A DNA stretch of 64,000 nucleotides from an uncultured Bacteroidota bacterium (lineage in GTDB: Bacteria; Bacteroidota; Bacteroidia; Flavobacteriales; Flavobacteriaceae), in assembly GCA_902619855.1 (NCBI GenBank), contig CACNGE010000005.1, positions 1 through 64,000 of the forward strand. Reading direction: 5' to 3'. Position numbers and translations under genes: made by a program. The notes beneath the pieces are model-generated. The model was given only the letters and a program-made list of their open reading frames with translations, did not search any database and had not been told where the DNA came from. Positions 1,492-30,880 of the stretch are shown piece by piece. Every line of letters starts with the position of its first letter. The first letter of the stretch is position 1.

Positions 1492-2268
1492 TTATTCTTT
1501 GATAAGTTTTTGTGTGGCTACTTTTCCGTCTGCAGCAGAAGTCTTTAGCAAATAGATGCCTTTCGCTAGGTTTCCAACCTCGATTTGTTCGAAATTGTTT
1601 GTCTCTGAGAGCACTTTGGAACCAGTTAGTGAAAAAATCTCCACTCGCTCTAATGGCAATTCAGATTGAAACCCGATGACATCCTTCGCGGGGTTGGGAT
1701 AAATATTGAATTGAAAATCATTAAGATCAGAAAACGAGGCTGTTTGACAATCGGTACAGTTAATCTCCACGTCATCAATTTGAAAATAAGAAGATCCAAA
1801 TTTTTGTTGTATTCTAAAACCATAATTTACACTTTCATCAGCTGTGAAAGTTAATAATCTTTCTTCGTACCCACTATTAACACCACCATCTGATGATTTA
1901 TCGATTTCTACAGGAGACCCTGCTAGCTTCATGACTCTGATAAGCATTTTCCCATTATACCCATTTGTACGCTTGAAATATGCTTTGAAAGTGTATGTTT
2001 TACCTGAGACTAATTCTTTGACCATTTGGATTTCTTGATAACCTCCAGTTCTAAACTCAACAAACCAATCCGAGTTATTATTCCCAGATCCAGTGCTTTG
2101 AATAGTTTGTACTACGGGGTTTTGTTGAAAAACTTGCCAGCCATTAACCCCTTTCAAATCAGCCCCATTAGTATATCCTGTCTCAAAATTTTCGTTAAGT
2201 ATTGTTTGCTGGGCATTCGCCTGCAAACTGAACGAAATAAATAATAAAAAAGTAAATAAATGTTTCAT
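1492..2268 (-). CDS. Secreted jelly-roll (CBM-like) protein with T9SS type A sorting domain
   Basis: The 258-residue product has a signal peptide ending near ANAQ (about 1-20), a beta-rich central domain (about 21-170) starting with an ENFE motif and ending with an FQIDDVEI motif, and a C-terminal type IX sorting domain (about 185-258) with the hallmark YPNPAKD, a GSKV turn, KGIYLLK and a terminal KLIKE. The ENFE...IDDVE frame is typical of CBM4/9-like jelly rolls that bind carbohydrate. No catalytic domain is present. It should be exported and anchored on the cell surface or released through type IX secretion. The gene follows the related 2274-2795 gene after 5 bp, and a terminator follows it. 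Glycan binding is inferred. Confidence 0.75.
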   Translation of the reverse strand: MKHLFTFLLFISFSLQANAQQTILNENFETGYTNGADLKGVNGWQVFQQNPVVQTIQSTGSGNNNSDWFVEFRTGGYQEIQMVKELVSGKTYTFKAYFKRTNGYNGKMLIRVMKLAGSPVEIDKSSDGGVNSGYEERLLTFTADESVNYGFRIQQKFGSSYFQIDDVEINCTDCQTASFSDLNDFQFNIYPNPAKDVIGFQSELPLERVEIFSLTGSKVLSETNNFEQIEVGNLAKGIYLLKTSAADGKVATQKLIKE

Positions 2269-2273
2269 AATGT

Positions 2274-2795
2274 TTAAAGTTTAAAGAGTTTATAATTGTC
2301 TATCGAGACTTCAGTTCCATCTGCAAAACGGAATAATTGTAGTGTGACTTCGGATTTATTTTGCGGTACAGTAAAATTCAAACTGCTAGAAGTCCATGTA
2401 CCATTCTTAGGTTCAGCTATATTTTCCTTAACTAATTGTTGACTTTCGTCCCCTTTTCCAGAAACTACAGTGAGTACATGTGTTCGCTTCCATGCAGGAC
2501 CATTATTAACCACTTTAGTTTCTAATATCCATCGATAACGATTACCCGGGATTAAATCAAATGATTTGATTAAAAAAACTTTTGCTTGCGTAGTAGAAGT
2601 AGCTACTTTATTGGCTTCTTCTTGTCTAACTGTCCACACCGATTTATTCCAGCCTTGAAACTGAAGGGTATTCCTTTTGGTAATTTCTGTTCCTACTGTC
2701 TGATTCTCAAAATCGAGTTCGTATACCAATTCCTGCGCGGTTCCAAAAAATGAAAAAACCACAATAAAAAAGGCTGGAAGGTAAAAAAACTTCAT
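2274..2795 (-). CDS. Small secreted jelly-roll protein, carbohydrate binding suspected
   Basis: The reading frame is open further upstream, but the start at 2795 gives a clean signal peptide (MKFFYLPAFFIVVFSFFGTAQ-like, residues 1-20). The mature part, about 150 residues, is beta-rich and runs from an ELDFENQ motif to a VSIDNYKLFKL end, the same ENFE...IDNY frame as its downstream neighbour. It has no sorting domain and no catalytic motif. It is divergent from the GH2 gene at 2952. It may bind galactan or act as an accessory surface or periplasmic protein. I do not recognise a named family. Confidence 0.65.
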   Translation of the reverse strand: MKFFYLPAFFIVVFSFFGTAQELVYELDFENQTVGTEITKRNTLQFQGWNKSVWTVRQEEANKVATSTTQAKVFLIKSFDLIPGNRYRWILETKVVNNGPAWKRTHVLTVVSGKGDESQQLVKENIAEPKNGTWTSSSLNFTVPQNKSEVTLQLFRFADGTEVSIDNYKLFKL

Positions 2796-6131: not shown

Positions 6132-8039
6132 ATGAATAAACAGATTAAATATCAAATATTTGTATTGCTTTTGAGTTTTTCTTTATGTGCTCAAAATCAA
6201 TACTATTTGAGTAGCTCAACTGGAAATGACAACAACAATGGTTCGCAAACGCAGCCATGGAAAACTTTATCAAAACTTAGCAACACCACACTTGGCCCTG
6301 GTGACACAGTCTATTTCAAAAAGGGAGATACGTTTCGTGGACATTATGTTGTTAATGGGTCAGGGACAGAAGGAAACCTAATCACCTTTACCTCTTATGG
6401 ATCTGGAAATCAGCCTATTATAAGCGGTTCGAGCCATGATGATGGGGGCGGAGATTATCGAGAAGCAATCCTTGTAACCAATCATGACAATATGGTTTTT
6501 GATGGATTAGAAATTCAAAATCACAGAACAATATCCCGTTCTGGTGTAGGAGATTTGGTCAGTTTTGGAATAAGAATAGAAGTGTCTAATTCTAATGTAG
6601 ACCTTAATAATTTTTCCTTTAGAAATATGACCTTTAAAAACGTCTACGCTCTTTATTGGGTAGACCCAGCAGATCAAAATGCATTCAATGATTTTGAAGT
6701 ATCAGGCCTGACATTTATTTCATCTTGGGGTGGGATTATCAATAATGTGATTGTTGAAGAATCTTACTTTACAGACCTGCAACGAATTGGTGTTCATATT
6801 AAAAATACAATGGGTAAAACCTCTACTAAGAGAAATACAAATTTTGTGTTTAGAAACAATGAGTTTTTTCAAATAGGAGGTACTTGTGTACTACCTATTA
6901 GAACTGAAAACTGTTTGATTGAAAATAATATTTTCAACCAACCTGGTGCCAAAACCAATGATAAAATGATTGGTCGTGGAAGTGCCGTTTGGAATTGGTA
7001 TAGCATCAATACTATTGTTCAGTATAACCAAGCCGTGAATGCGAAAGGTATTTTGGATTCTCACGGAATTCATGTTGACCATTCGAACGTGGACACCTTT
7101 ATACAATATAATTATATGCAAGATTGTGAGGGGGGATTTGTTGAGATTCTTGGTGGAAACCAACGTGCTGTTTATCGCTTCAACATTAGTGTCAATGATG
7201 GCTGGCGTGTAAACCCCAATTGGGTTAACAGCGATCATACCATCTGGTTGAATGATAAAATTGGAGGTCAAAGCGGACACCCTTCTTATGAAAGCTATAT
7301 ATACAACAACACTGTTGTCATAAACAAAAGCGGAAATGATGCATTTGACACAGCAATTGATATCAATGGGCAAAACACCCGAATTTTTAATAATATTTTT
7401 TATGCTGTTAATGGCTCTGGTATTGGAAATCAACAAGGTAATTATAGTGACCCTAACCTAATGATGACCAACAACCTGTTTTTTGGAAATATTAGAAATA
7501 ATTTCAAAACCATCGACACAAACAGAATTGAGGTTAACCCTGTTTTTTACAATGAACAAAGTGGTGACCAATATGGGTTTCAAATTGATGCTTCTAGCCA
7601 AGCAATAGATGCAGGTGCAGCATATACAGGTAATTATGCTCATCCAGCCATTCCAGTGGACGCATCAACTATTTTTGCCAACTTGGAGGAATACCCGACA
7701 GTAGATTTCTTCGGCAATTCATTGTCAGGTGATTCTACACCCAATATAGGAGCTAGTAATGCGAAAAATGGAGAAATTACACTCTCCAACAAATCCGATA
7801 TTTCAACCGAAAAGGTTTACATACAAAACCCTATGATTTCTGATAAAGTTGTACTCCATGGAGTTAATAAGTCTTACCAATATGCATTGGTTGATATATT
7901 GGGGCGAACCAAACAACAAGGCTTTTTAGAAGCCCAAAAAGACGAAATCATTTTGGATGAGTCTTTAAATCCAGGCATCTATCTTTTACAACTGAGGGAC
8001 AAAACCAATACTATTACATCCAAAATTGTTGTGAACTAA
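6132..8039 (+). CDS. Secreted right-handed beta-helix protein with T9SS sorting domain, candidate polysaccharide-degrading enzyme
   Basis: This 635-residue protein starts with a signal peptide (about 1-20) and then a cap typical of parallel beta-helix lyases and hydrolases (YYLSSSTGNDNNNG...PWKTL, then GDTVYFKKGDTFRG). The middle (about 80-470) is a long run of short repeats rich in N, F and V (NNVIVEESYF, NFVFRNNEF, ENNIFNQ, IYNNTVVI, IFNNIFY), as expected for helix coils. The last 75 residues are a type IX sorting domain (DILGRTKQQG, GIYLLQLRD, KIVVN end). The fold is shared by many PL and GH families (for example PL6, GH28), so catalysis type is unknown. Its place between GH2 and GH16 genes argues for a galactan enzyme acting outside the cell. 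Confidence 0.75.
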   Translation: MNKQIKYQIFVLLLSFSLCAQNQYYLSSSTGNDNNNGSQTQPWKTLSKLSNTTLGPGDTVYFKKGDTFRGHYVVNGSGTEGNLITFTSYGSGNQPIISGSSHDDGGGDYREAILVTNHDNMVFDGLEIQNHRTISRSGVGDLVSFGIRIEVSNSNVDLNNFSFRNMTFKNVYALYWVDPADQNAFNDFEVSGLTFISSWGGIINNVIVEESYFTDLQRIGVHIKNTMGKTSTKRNTNFVFRNNEFFQIGGTCVLPIRTENCLIENNIFNQPGAKTNDKMIGRGSAVWNWYSINTIVQYNQAVNAKGILDSHGIHVDHSNVDTFIQYNYMQDCEGGFVEILGGNQRAVYRFNISVNDGWRVNPNWVNSDHTIWLNDKIGGQSGHPSYESYIYNNTVVINKSGNDAFDTAIDINGQNTRIFNNIFYAVNGSGIGNQQGNYSDPNLMMTNNLFFGNIRNNFKTIDTNRIEVNPVFYNEQSGDQYGFQIDASSQAIDAGAAYTGNYAHPAIPVDASTIFANLEEYPTVDFFGNSLSGDSTPNIGASNAKNGEITLSNKSDISTEKVYIQNPMISDKVVLHGVNKSYQYALVDILGRTKQQGFLEAQKDEIILDESLNPGIYLLQLRDKTNTITSKIVVN

Positions 8040-26202: not shown

Positions 26203-27729
26203 ATGAAATCATTTATTGTTGCCTTTACTTTTATAATAACACTATCACTATCTAGCTGTTCTGAGGGTCACCAAAATCCTAACATCATTATTATATATAC
26301 TGATGATTTGGGCTATGGAGATGTAAGTGCTTATGGAGCTACAGAAATTAATACTCCCAACATGGACTTTTTAGCCAATAATGGGGTTCAATTCACACAA
26401 GGCTATGCGTCTTCAGCGACATGTACCCCGAGTAGATATGCACTACTTACGGGATCCTATCCATGGAAAGAAAAACGCGCTCGCATCCTTCCTGGAACAG
26501 CACCTTTAATTATTGATACAGCCCAAATAACATTGCCCAAAATGCTTAAAAAACAAGGATATCAAACAGCAGTCATTGGAAAATGGCATCTTGGCCTTGG
26601 TACAGGGCATGTAGATTGGAATACCCATATTAGTCCAGGACCAAATGAGATAGGATTTGATCACGCATACATTATGGCAGCAACACAGGATAGAGTACCA
26701 ACTGTTTACATTGAGAATGGTTACGTTGATGGTTTGGATCCATCAGACCCCATTGAAATCAGTTATAAAAGGAATTATGAAGGTCAGGCAACAGGAAAAA
26801 ACAATCCTGAGTTGTTATCAATGATGTGGCACCACGGACATAACGGAACTATTGTAAACGGCGTTCCTAGAATAGGTTTTATGAAAGGTGGGGAATCCGC
26901 CAAGTGGAGTGATATAGATATGGCAGATCATTTTTTGAATAAGGTTAAAAATTATATCAAATCAAAAAAAGATAAACCATTCTTTTTGTACTATGGCATG
27001 CAACAACCTCACGTACCACGCACGCCCCATCCTCGCTTTGTTGGAGCTACTTCTTTAGGACCAAGGGGTGATGTGATTGCTGAGGCTGATTGGTGTGTTG
27101 GTGAACTGGTGAAAACGCTACAAGAAGAGGGTCTTATGGAAAATACGCTAATCGTGTTTTCAAGTGATAACGGACCAGTGCTAAATGATGGTTACTATGA
27201 TGATGCGGTTGAAAAAAACGGAAGTCATACGGCAGCAGGTGTGTTGCGAGGGGGTAAATACAGCCTATTTGAAGCGGGCACAAGGGTTCCATTCATCACC
27301 TACTGGAAAGGAAAGATTCAGCCCAAAAAATCAGATGCCTTGGTGAGCCAATTGGATTTGTTTTCTTCCTTAGCCAAATTGACTGGGAGTGATCTGAGAG
27401 CCGATGATAGTGTAGATTTGCTAGATACCTTTATGGGAAATAGTAATATTGGGCGTGAAGAGTTGATTTTGGAGGCAACAACGCGCACTGCTCTCAGAAG
27501 CGGTGATTGGGTTATGATTCCCCCTTACAATGGACCTGCTAAGTTAAAAGCTGTTAATATTGAAATCGGTAATAGTAACCAGTACCAACTTTACGATCTT
27601 TCGCAAGATATAAGCCAGCAAATTAATTTGGCGGAGTCAAATCCGGAAAAACTCAACGAAATGATTCTTAGATTTAAGGAAATTAGGGGGGAGAGTTATT
27701 CAAAAGTTGAAAAAATAGAACTTAAATAG
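26203..27729 (+). CDS. S1-family (formylglycine) sulfatase, lipoprotein
   Basis: The 508-residue protein has a lipoprotein signal with lipobox cysteine C19 in SLSSCSEG, unlike the other five sulfatases, which have ordinary signal peptides. It therefore should be membrane anchored. The metal-site strand is IIYTDDLGYGDVSAYG, and the activation motif is C74-T-P-S-R within ATCTPSRYALLTGSYPW. GKWHLGLGTGHVDWN and FSSDNGPVLNDGYYDDA complete the site. The YPWKE...RILPG segment after the motif is typical of one S1 arylsulfatase branch active on algal glycans. It is divergent from the esterase-led operon and convergent with the GH2 gene downstream. Confidence 0.9.
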   Translation: MKSFIVAFTFIITLSLSSCSEGHQNPNIIIIYTDDLGYGDVSAYGATEINTPNMDFLANNGVQFTQGYASSATCTPSRYALLTGSYPWKEKRARILPGTAPLIIDTAQITLPKMLKKQGYQTAVIGKWHLGLGTGHVDWNTHISPGPNEIGFDHAYIMAATQDRVPTVYIENGYVDGLDPSDPIEISYKRNYEGQATGKNNPELLSMMWHHGHNGTIVNGVPRIGFMKGGESAKWSDIDMADHFLNKVKNYIKSKKDKPFFLYYGMQQPHVPRTPHPRFVGATSLGPRGDVIAEADWCVGELVKTLQEEGLMENTLIVFSSDNGPVLNDGYYDDAVEKNGSHTAAGVLRGGKYSLFEAGTRVPFITYWKGKIQPKKSDALVSQLDLFSSLAKLTGSDLRADDSVDLLDTFMGNSNIGREELILEATTRTALRSGDWVMIPPYNGPAKLKAVNIEIGNSNQYQLYDLSQDISQQINLAESNPEKLNEMILRFKEIRGESYSKVEKIELK

Positions 27730-27867
27730 TGTTCACTTCTTTAATGAAACCTGGGAGCTGACGCACTTTGTTTTCGGATTTCATGAGATATTGGTTATGA
27801 GTAATTTCATTGCTACTCAGTTTAGAACATATTCCAAATTAAAATGCGTTACCGAAGGTTCTCTACT
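27730..27867. other. Gap with a short unassigned open stretch
   Basis: On the minus strand an open stretch without a usable start spans about 27722-27844 and ends in a run reading KVRQLPGFIKEVN before a stop that overlaps the sulfatase end. I do not recognise it. It may be debris of a former gene, like the kinase relic next to it. Confidence 0.25.
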
Positions 27868-27942
27868 GAAGCAGAAAAAGCGCAAATAGCCCTGAAGTGC
27901 TAAGCGCAACATGATTTCACCAAAGTTGACAATTTTTTTTAT
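27868..27942 (-). pseudogene. Relic of a 2-keto-3-deoxygluconate kinase N-terminus (PfkB family)
   Basis: Reading the minus strand from 27942 gives IKKIV-NFGEIMLRLALQGYLRFF, which closely matches the conserved N-terminus of PfkB-type KDG kinases (KxVTFGEIMLRL...GxxRF). The start codon position reads ATA rather than ATG. After about 25 codons the similarity stops, the expected GGGEANVA sugar-binding block is absent, and a stop follows. The remaining kinase is missing, so this is a small gene remnant, probably left by a deletion. KDG kinases act on 2-keto-3-deoxy sugars made from anhydrogalactose or uronate. The match is from memory of the family, not a search. Confidence 0.6.
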
Positions 27943-27946
27943 CTAT

Positions 27947-30880
27947 TTATTGATTTAGGTAATTTATCATATTATTTAAAATAAGTTCAGCAACCGGATC
28001 TTTTCCTAGGTTTCCAACAATATCAAAAGTCGATAACAGCATAGTTCCTTCTCCAAACCCTGTTTCTAAAAGATTGGCGCCAAACCAAATGTCCCCGGGA
28101 CCAGGATAATGACGAAGCATCAAATCTAAATTTTGAAAATGGTCATAGCTAACTACCCCCGATATCATTTTACCTTGTTGCATCATCATCGTGGTTTTTG
28201 GATGTACATTCTGGTAAACTTCTTGCATAATCACTCCCGTTGGTAGTCCTTGGAACACGGGATGTTCCATGACCATATGAGGTTTTCCAGCCCAAAGTCC
28301 AAGAGTGGTACCTTTGTTTAACAAATTTGCAGAAAACGGCAGGCCTTCAATGCTGTTTGATTCAAATTTTCTTCCAAAGTAAGGCGGTGTTTTTCCAGTT
28401 ACATCTAAGATGATAAGCTTTCCTCCTTTACCAACTTCAGTTTTGGCATTTTTAAGCAACTCGTTAAAAGCTTTTTTTTCAGATCTTGGTACTGAACCAC
28501 TGATAATCAATCCCCCAGCATGTTCATTGGAGTCAAAATCTACAAAAGAAATATTTTTTTTGGTTAAAAATATTTTTAGGTCTCCTTGTGGATCTATGAC
28601 GCGCAGCGGTGCATCGCTATCAAAAACTACAGGGTCAAAAATGTCAAAATCAAAACTATTTTTGGCAATAAGATTTCCTTTTTTGTCTTTTAATTTTACA
28701 CGCGCTTGAAAACTTCCCGTTAAGCTAAACATGTTAATTTCTTCACTCAGATAGGATGTTATCCCTTGGGTTAAAGGTTTATGTACTTCTTTTTCTATAA
28801 GAAGGTTTTCCGACGCATCAAATACTTGAAAATGAATTTGGGCTTTCATTTCCATATTTTCGTTGACGCCAATCACTTCTACCTTTGGGTTAACACCTGA
28901 ATAACTGTTTCTAGGCATCACACGTAAGGTAACAATTTGCTCTTGGTTCGCCTCCTTGGTCATTTCATAAACATCTGTTTTTGGATTTCGCCACAAATCA
29001 AGCAGACCTGCACCCATTATCCAATCTCCTGCTGTGAGCGCATGAACACAATACCCGATTACATTCGGGTTGGAGCGTGTGGCTTCAAGCAATCTTTTGT
29101 TCGCCATTCCATGTGCCGTTTGCTGAGCCAAACAGAACTCTTCAAAATTGTCAAACAAACGATCAAAACCTGTTTTTTGCATCATTTGCTCAAGTTCTTT
29201 CTCTAGTCTTTGGTGATAGCGCATGGTGGGTGTAAGGGGATTTCCTTTTTGTCTAAATTCTTCATTGTTTCGAGGGAGGTTAGGCAAACTGCCATAACCC
29301 AATTCAGAAACGAATGAGAGTCGCCCAGAAACAACATTTTTCCCTGGTATTTTTAGTCCAGAAAGGCCTTTCTCTTTCAATTCGTCTTTTGAGGCACCAA
29401 TATTGGCATATCCATCATATATATCTTGTGTAATTTGGGAACCTGAATAATCATGAATATCATTAAACTGATTCCCTGTTTTTTCGTAAGGCAAATACAT
29501 CCTTGCACCCTTGGCCCATCCGCCTGATTCGTCTAGAATAAGCCTGGTTGGGTCAAGCTCACGGGCTTTGAGCGACATGGGTTGAAGCATTTGAATCATC
29601 ACTGGCTGTAAAAGCTCATTAAAAAGTTCCCAAATGACCACACTTGTTCGGTTTCGATCTCTAAGAATGCTCTGTGTAAGTTCATTTTCTACCCGCATAG
29701 GCAAATAAGCCGATTGGATAGGTCTATTCATACATTCTATTGCCAAGCTACCCACGGTTAGCACACCCATTTCGTCACACAGATCAAGCCACATTTTGGG
29801 TGGAGGCTTCCGCCAAGGCCTAATCATATTGAATCCCGCATCTTTGGCAAGTTGAATTTCTCTAATCGCCATTTCCTTAGAGTCAGGATAAGCAAGTCCT
29901 ACGGGGTAAAGCCCTTCAAAAAAGGTTGCTTTTAAATACAGGGGTTCGTTGTTTAGATAGAACTGATTGTTTTGAATTGTAAACTTTCGCATGCCAAAAC
30001 GGTGTGTCCAGTTGTCCGTTGTTTCTTTGCCATTTGTAAGTGAGATGTCAATAGAATACAGGTGTGGGCTTTTGGGTGACCAAAGCTTTTGATTTGGAAT
30101 ATCGACGGATGTTTTTAGGCTATTTTTTCCTGGATCTAATTCCATGTTTTTTTCAAAAACGCCCACCGTGTTACCGGCTGCGTCATTGACCTTAATTGAA
30201 AGAGTTGTTTTTTGTTGTGCTGATTGGTGATTGTATAATTCTAGATCAATACCAATTTGCGATTTGTCAATGTCGGGTTTTAAAAAAGCATCATGAATCG
30301 TTACATTTCCTCTGCGCTGAATCCAAACGTCTTGCCAAATCCCCCCTGTAATCGCACCTCTCCATTGGGGTACTTCCATACGACCCATTTCGTCGATACG
30401 TTGGTCAGTCATTAGTATAGGACCGACAACCCTCATAATTATGTGGTTTATCTCCCCGGGTTTCAGAACTTCATCGATTTGAAATGAAAAAGGAGTAAAG
30501 CCGCCTTCATGAGTACCAACGGCTTGGTCATTTACCCAAACTTCAGTTTTGTAATTTACAGCTTCAAAATGAAGACTAAAAACTCCCTCATTCCACGATT
30601 CGGGTACCCGAAATGATTTCTTGTAGAAGACCACCCCTTCAAAGTCTTTTTTGATGGTTTCCCAATGACTTGGAACTTGAATGTCTAACACCTCTTTCTG
30701 CTTCTCAAATTCTTGTTTTAAATACCATTTTTCAAGACCTCCCCGATTGTCATGGTCAAAAATAATAGCCCATTTTCCGTTAAGTGATATGTTATCGATC
30801 ATATCATCAGCTTGGGCTGAAAGTAGCGTTAAATGAATAAAAATAAAGTAGCAAGTAATATTAATTAAACTTTGAAGCAT
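27947..30880 (-). CDS. Glycoside hydrolase family 2 enzyme with C-terminal amidotransferase-like domain
   Basis: The 977-residue protein has a signal peptide (about 1-24, LLSAQA), the GH2 jelly roll (GKWAIIFDHDNRGG, VPSHWETI, FEAVNYKTEVWVNDQAVGTHEGGFTPF), an Ig domain, and a barrel with acid/base E422 in WELFNELLQP and nucleophile E526 in FVSELGYGS. The NE and SELG motifs resemble beta-glucuronidase-type GH2 members more than LacZ. From about 762 to the end there is an alpha/beta region (LIISGSVPRSEKKAFNELL, GKLIILDVTG, HPVFQGLP) resembling the glutamine amidotransferase-like domain of some galactosidases, without a clear catalytic triad. It is convergent with the 26203 sulfatase and divergent from susC. 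Confidence 0.85.
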   Translation of the reverse strand: MLQSLINITCYFIFIHLTLLSAQADDMIDNISLNGKWAIIFDHDNRGGLEKWYLKQEFEKQKEVLDIQVPSHWETIKKDFEGVVFYKKSFRVPESWNEGVFSLHFEAVNYKTEVWVNDQAVGTHEGGFTPFSFQIDEVLKPGEINHIIMRVVGPILMTDQRIDEMGRMEVPQWRGAITGGIWQDVWIQRRGNVTIHDAFLKPDIDKSQIGIDLELYNHQSAQQKTTLSIKVNDAAGNTVGVFEKNMELDPGKNSLKTSVDIPNQKLWSPKSPHLYSIDISLTNGKETTDNWTHRFGMRKFTIQNNQFYLNNEPLYLKATFFEGLYPVGLAYPDSKEMAIREIQLAKDAGFNMIRPWRKPPPKMWLDLCDEMGVLTVGSLAIECMNRPIQSAYLPMRVENELTQSILRDRNRTSVVIWELFNELLQPVMIQMLQPMSLKARELDPTRLILDESGGWAKGARMYLPYEKTGNQFNDIHDYSGSQITQDIYDGYANIGASKDELKEKGLSGLKIPGKNVVSGRLSFVSELGYGSLPNLPRNNEEFRQKGNPLTPTMRYHQRLEKELEQMMQKTGFDRLFDNFEEFCLAQQTAHGMANKRLLEATRSNPNVIGYCVHALTAGDWIMGAGLLDLWRNPKTDVYEMTKEANQEQIVTLRVMPRNSYSGVNPKVEVIGVNENMEMKAQIHFQVFDASENLLIEKEVHKPLTQGITSYLSEEINMFSLTGSFQARVKLKDKKGNLIAKNSFDFDIFDPVVFDSDAPLRVIDPQGDLKIFLTKKNISFVDFDSNEHAGGLIISGSVPRSEKKAFNELLKNAKTEVGKGGKLIILDVTGKTPPYFGRKFESNSIEGLPFSANLLNKGTTLGLWAGKPHMVMEHPVFQGLPTGVIMQEVYQNVHPKTTMMMQQGKMISGVVSYDHFQNLDLMLRHYPGPGDIWFGANLLETGFGEGTMLLSTFDIVGNLGKDPVAELILNNMINYLNQ

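Follow-up and report, generated by a model that had tools for sequence, protein, structure and literature searches.

What the 217-bp gap between the end of a GH2 glycosidase gene and the end of a convergent sulfatase gene contains, and how it came about, is the question raised by this locus of an uncultured Flavobacteriaceae bacterium. The window, meaning the whole stretch of DNA analyzed, is 64,000 nucleotides long (CACNGE010000005.1, positions 1-64,000; assembly GCA_902619855.1), and its own genome, here G000, is an incomplete assembly of 65 contigs. It was compared with the congeners G001, G002, G008 and L145, with the bin record L146, and with G094, a member of the same family but of a different genus; GH2 orthologues are 95% identical in G002, 95% in G001, 90% in G008 and 73% in G094. 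Although the record L146 (NZLM01000039.1) is titled as a Euryarchaeota archaeon, it carries the flavobacterial locus, with GH2 DNA that is 98.4% identical, and is probably a mislabelled or mixed bin. We conclude with high confidence that the gap is a composite pseudogene, formed by in-place deletion of a redundant gene pair consisting of kdgK (a PfkB 2-keto-3-deoxy-sugar-acid kinase) and eda (a KDPG/KDPGal aldolase). The identification of the scar is firm, and the reason for the loss is one that we infer. The features are listed in the table.

Table. Features of the window that bear on the gap between the GH2 and sulfatase genes
Feature	Position	Strand	Evidence
DauB-like 3,6-anhydro-D-galactonate cycloisomerase (enolase superfamily), truncated by contig end	1..1023	-	PDB 5olc; MR_MLE Pfam domains
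Sulfatase, intact, convergent neighbor	26203..27729	+	Pfam PF00884, E 1e-56
eda remnant (KDPG/KDPGal aldolase), approximately the last 44 codons and stop codon, with an in-frame stop	27722..27854	-	Stop-anchored identity to the eda gene in the same slot of G094
Deletion junction, kdgK fused to eda (exact breakpoint approximate)	27855..27873	-	Translation; common to G001, G002 and L146
kdgK remnant (PfkB 2-keto-3-deoxy-sugar-acid kinase), codons 1-23	27874..27942	-	DNA match, shuffles, L145 orthologue
GH2 glycosidase, intact, upstream neighbor	27947..30880	-	Pfam GH2 domains; orthologues

The first-pass annotation had claimed a minus-strand match to the N-terminus of PfkB KDG kinases, and this match holds up. 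From position 27942 down to 27877, the minus strand translates as I-KKIVNFGEIMLRLALQGYLRF, beyond which kinase similarity ends; the GH2 stop codon lies 4 nt ahead of the lost kdgK start. The scar peptide matches the N-terminus of the Bacteroidota PfkB KDG/KDGal kinases, with 77% identity over 22 residues to the intact kinase on contig C18 of the same genome, and the underlying DNA is 86.6% identical to that kdgK over 67 nt (E 5e-16). Nowhere else in the window was a kinase match obtained. As the first-pass annotation had also said, the position of the start codon (27942-27940) reads ATA, where the intact congener L145 has ATG, and the remainder of the kinase is gone: codons 1-23 are left, and the bulk of the gene has been deleted, and with it the full PfkB fold and its substrate and ATP sites. 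By its sequence, the kdgK scar is a relic and no longer a member of the kinase family. A Pfam scan of the 40-residue scar peptide alone returned no match because the peptide is too short. That AT-rich intergenic DNA resembles a kinase N-terminus by accident can practically be dismissed. The scar peptide, at 22 residues, is indeed short and escapes Pfam, but the C18 kinase scores 37.4 bits against the scar and never more than 24.6 bits against 5000 dinucleotide shuffles of the gap. Several congeners, moreover, carry the remnant at the corresponding position, and the intact orthologues that L145 and G094 have in this slot refute a chance match outright.

Those two relatives preserve the state before the loss, and they bear out the earlier claim that this locus formerly had a full-length kinase. 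The collinear locus of G094 carries GH2, kdgK (348 aa), eda (225 aa) and then the convergent sulfatase, which is 83% identical to the sulfatase in the window and in the same place; by Pfam the two slot proteins are PfkB and KDPG aldolase, and the eda product scores above the NCBIfam cut-off of NF005499. In L145 (GH2 92% identical in DNA), GH2 is followed by ATGAAAAAAGTAGTC and a kdgK gene with its ATG, which stays open for 176 codons to the contig end and is 96% identical to the C18 kinase; any eda would lie beyond the contig, so that L145 documents an intact orthologue for the kdgK part and G094 for both genes. From the GH2 end to the sulfatase end there are ~1750 bp in G094 versus 217 bp here, and therefore ~1.5 kb is gone. 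The first-pass annotation had read the remnant as a sign that the locus was rearranged. This does not stand, since the gene order around the scar is unchanged and collinear with G094, which rules out rearrangement of, or transfer into, the locus and indicates a deletion in place. The slot kdgK of L145 (2795-3322) is closer to its C18 paralogue (96% identical) than to the slot gene of G094 (84%), whereas the slot eda tail resembles that of G094 and not that of C18, and kdgK may have been converted or copied between loci inside this genus. The closest solved relatives of the sulfatase are S1-type enzymes such as 7ozc (E 2e-198), together with the N-acetylgalactosamine-6-O-sulfatase entry 6s20; these structural relatives may help to name the polysaccharide target.

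The first-pass annotation was correct about the kdgK part and fell short on extent: the relic is larger than claimed (27942-27722) and includes an eda C-terminus that had been overlooked. An ungapped, stop-anchored alignment of 120 nt to the slot eda of G094, with 2000 shuffles and a slide control, gave 69 of 120 identical positions for G000, 70 for G001 and 69 for G002, versus a maximum of 52-53 in the shuffles and 46-47 when the tail was slid along the gene. The G008 tail is marginal in the same test (56 versus a shuffle maximum of 52). This test was devised after a plain local alignment of the G000 tail had proved borderline (58 versus a shuffle maximum of 61). The eda paralogues of the own genome reach 32-35 of 120 against the tail, which is the shuffle level, and a DNA search likewise found no similarity to them; the slot orthologue of G094 is thus the only eda gene that the tail matches. 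The homology to the eda C-terminus comes with the position and orientation of the orthologue, down to an 8-nt overlap between the 3' ends of eda and the sulfatase gene here and in G094. A complete aldolase barrel is absent, as ~180 N-terminal eda codons are missing. The match to the G094 slot eda makes the gap feature a kdgK-eda composite, and 27864-27855 can tentatively be read as still belonging to eda (VENLR resembling EENLK).

The kdgK remnant is also found between GH2 and the sulfatase in G001, G002 and G008, and one junction is common to G000, G001, G002 and L146, with a further internal deletion of ~24 nt in the G002 scar. Several kdgK-eda paralogues exist in these genomes, and G000 is fragmented and incomplete, conditions under which an assembly or binning artefact might collapse near-identical kdgK-eda copies onto one another. 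Such an origin is nevertheless highly improbable. Collapse would yield intact copies, and the remnant is diverged (87%) and contains stops; moreover, the same junction recurs in AG-349-I20, AG-908-E14 and a metagenome bin, which were assembled independently of one another, and this makes a common assembly error unlikely. The breakpoints differ in G008, which keeps ~118 nt of kdgK (a 125-nt alignment with the intact G001 gene shows 80% identity, E 8e-24) and has space for at most ~80 nt of eda, versus 69 nt of kdgK and ~133 nt of eda in the G000 clade. Since these breakpoints are not nested, neither deletion derives from the other, and the intact L145 branches between the two: the GH2 DNA tree places it beside the G000 clade, apart from G008 (support 0.994; 0.87 in the protein tree). 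The slot therefore underwent two separate losses, and by this comparison those of the G000/G001/G002 clade and of G008 are independent.

A scar common to G000, G001, G002 and L146, 92-94% identical among the first three and preserving the spacing between two convergent genes, could be thought to have been retained as a short peptide, leader or regulatory element after the enzyme was lost. Its divergence speaks against such a function, which we consider very improbable. Scar identity is 92.0% between G000 and G001 and 93.0% between G000 and G002, compared with 87-94% at the 4-fold sites of neighboring genes (for G000/G001, 89.6% in GH2 and 87.4% in the sulfatase), and between G000 and G008 it is 61%, versus 73.6% and 65.6% at the 4-fold sites of GH2 and the sulfatase, respectively; the scar thus diverges about as fast as 4-fold sites. 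Coding capacity has gone as well: the start is lost (ATA) or, in G008, followed by a stop, stops and indels (including the internal deletion in G002) interrupt the sequence, and the frames end at differing places. The scar appears to be drifting, approximately without detectable constraint.

The composite pseudogene derives from an ancestor in which GH2, kdgK and eda met the sulfatase gene tail to tail. As comparison with the intact loci shows, the ~1.5 kb between the kdgK 5' end and the eda 3' end was deleted in place, leaving ends that now drift; the remnant has no activity of its own. The pair may have been dispensable because other intact pairs encode the lower Entner-Doudoroff step, in which 2-keto-3-deoxy-(gal/glu)conate is phosphorylated at position 6 and the product split into pyruvate and glyceraldehyde-3-phosphate, and possibly also because an HpcH/HpaI aldolase encoded beside dauA/dauB can cleave the unphosphorylated acid directly. 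As the first-pass annotation had anticipated, an intact kinase lies elsewhere in the genome: G000 holds two intact kdgK-eda pairs (contigs C18 and C10), and G001, G002, G007 and G008 hold one each, so that each scarred genome retains at least one. The scarred genomes are 63-78% complete, and further copies could exist; eight other congeners, whose assemblies are incomplete, show no kdgK.

Similar scars are found at other loci of these genomes. A second kdgK-eda scar lies on the minus strand at 6553-6792 of L077 (G001:C6) and at 6336-6574 of L078 (G008:C2), where ~50 kinase codons lead without interruption into the eda C-terminus; the open frame spans 71-72 codons and lacks the original ATG. 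Its operon carries a tagaturonate-reductase gene, and the pair is whole there in G000:C10 and G002:C24; the junction falls at short imperfect repeats of the intact genes, GATGTGGATTTTG in kdgK and AATGAAGATTTTG in eda, ~1.6 kb apart. A third scar (L079, G008:C24, ~2085-2290, minus strand), upstream of the start of a transporter-like gene, joins ~20 kdgK codons to an eda C-terminus, and here too both genes have a short sequence in common near the junction, which in the C18 pair reads TTGCGT. The deletions may plausibly have arisen by slippage between such short repeats. The wider reading is that in this genus kdgK-eda pairs in separate sugar-acid operons have been removed repeatedly and independently, leaving scars with a kinase 5' end and an aldolase 3' end, and that the lower Entner-Doudoroff step has thereby come to depend on the one or two pairs that remain, or has been taken over by an aldolase acting directly (non-phosphorylatively). 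We give this reading about an even chance; recurrence was assessed within the genus.

The DauB-like protein at the edge of the window indicates which pathway the pair may have served. Its closest solved relative, aligned over 337 residues, is PDB 5olc (E 2.2e-135), the 3,6-anhydro-D-galactonate cycloisomerase of Zobellia (PMC5698469), whose product, 2-keto-3-deoxy-D-galactonate, is the substrate for a kinase (DauC) followed by an aldolase (DauD) (PMC5698469). The DauB-like enzyme therefore likely makes the substrate of the lost kinase, and because dauB is in the same locus, we infer that the lost pair served the anhydrogalactose pathway. The first-pass suggestion of a deleted sugar-acid branch survives in part: the kinase is gone, and the aldolase with it, but loss of the branch itself is unsupported, since dauB is retained and intact copies or the HpcH/HpaI aldolase may serve the step. 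In G001 and G008, dauB is followed by genes for a DauA-like dehydrogenase, an HpcH/HpaI aldolase and a RhaT-family transporter, whereas in G000 the end of the dehydrogenase gene and the HpcH gene open contig C27, and dauB lies at the edge of C5, an arrangement consistent with a contig break inside the dau cluster. The HpcH/HpaI aldolase beside dauA/dauB (L072, G001:C1, 9211-9975; L112, G000:C27) has only distant relatives among solved structures. Close to its 5' end, the DauA-like gene of G001 (L072, ~7770-7985) is frameshifted at a run of G, reflecting either a sequencing error or decay.

The strongest competing account concerns the reason for the loss and not the scar. It holds that the HpcH/HpaI enzyme, a candidate direct 2-keto-3-deoxy-galactonate aldolase, cleaves the unphosphorylated acid and so turns the pathway non-phosphorylative. 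The clustering of its gene with the other dau genes in G001 and G008 (and in parts on C27 and the C5 edge in G000) favors this account, as do relatives of the enzyme that act on 2-dehydro-3-deoxy sugar acids and the suggestion of a non-phosphorylative route in species without dauC (PMC5698469). It is weakened by NCBIfam scores that are all below cut-off for the HpcH aldolase, by the retention of intact kdgK-eda pairs in all scarred genomes, and by G094, which holds the HpcH gene and an intact pair together; the HpcH gene therefore probably preceded the loss and alone provides no explanation. We regard the account as a tentative one, with somewhat less than an even chance of being correct. With the pair at this locus lost by deletion, the kinase/aldolase step may now fall to one of the intact pairs (C18 or C10) or to the HpcH enzyme.

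Literature searches for pseudogenes of kdgK at loci of this kind turned up no directly relevant work. Among the nearest known systems, the dauC-dauD genes of the carrageenan regulon of Zobellia galactanivorans (PMC5698469) likewise encode a sugar-acid kinase and a phospho-sugar-acid aldolase; they finish the breakdown of 3,6-anhydro-D-galactose after DauA and DauB, and dauC is missing in some species (PMC5698469). Here, in contrast, both genes are a scar in a locus beside GH2 and a sulfatase, and the likeness to ZGAL_3154 and ZGAL_3153 is one of described role. The flkin-flald genes of Flavobacterium sp. UMI-01 (PMC5334617) encode a KDG kinase and a KDPG aldolase of the Bacteroidota type in one operon, an intact alginate operon in which both activities have been demonstrated (PMC5334617), whereas only the two ends of the pair, likened to it by description, remain here. 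Ordinary bacterial pseudogene remnants resemble the scar in their in-place deletion, frameshifts, lost start, near-neutral drift and intact paralogues, but the scar with a kinase 5' end and an aldolase 3' end has had four or more origins, spread over three loci of a single genus. The gene loss is ordinary in kind; what makes it interesting is that it recurs within one genus.

The comparison displays ordered steps in the shedding of a metabolic module, from intact through loss of the start codon and deletion to drift, and the module shed by the polysaccharide locus is one supplied already by other operons. In the annotation of such loci, the anhydrogalactose pathway would seem to lack its final steps, yet the cell encodes them elsewhere. 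The repeated loss amounts to a modest natural experiment on redundancy in bacteria with small genomes.
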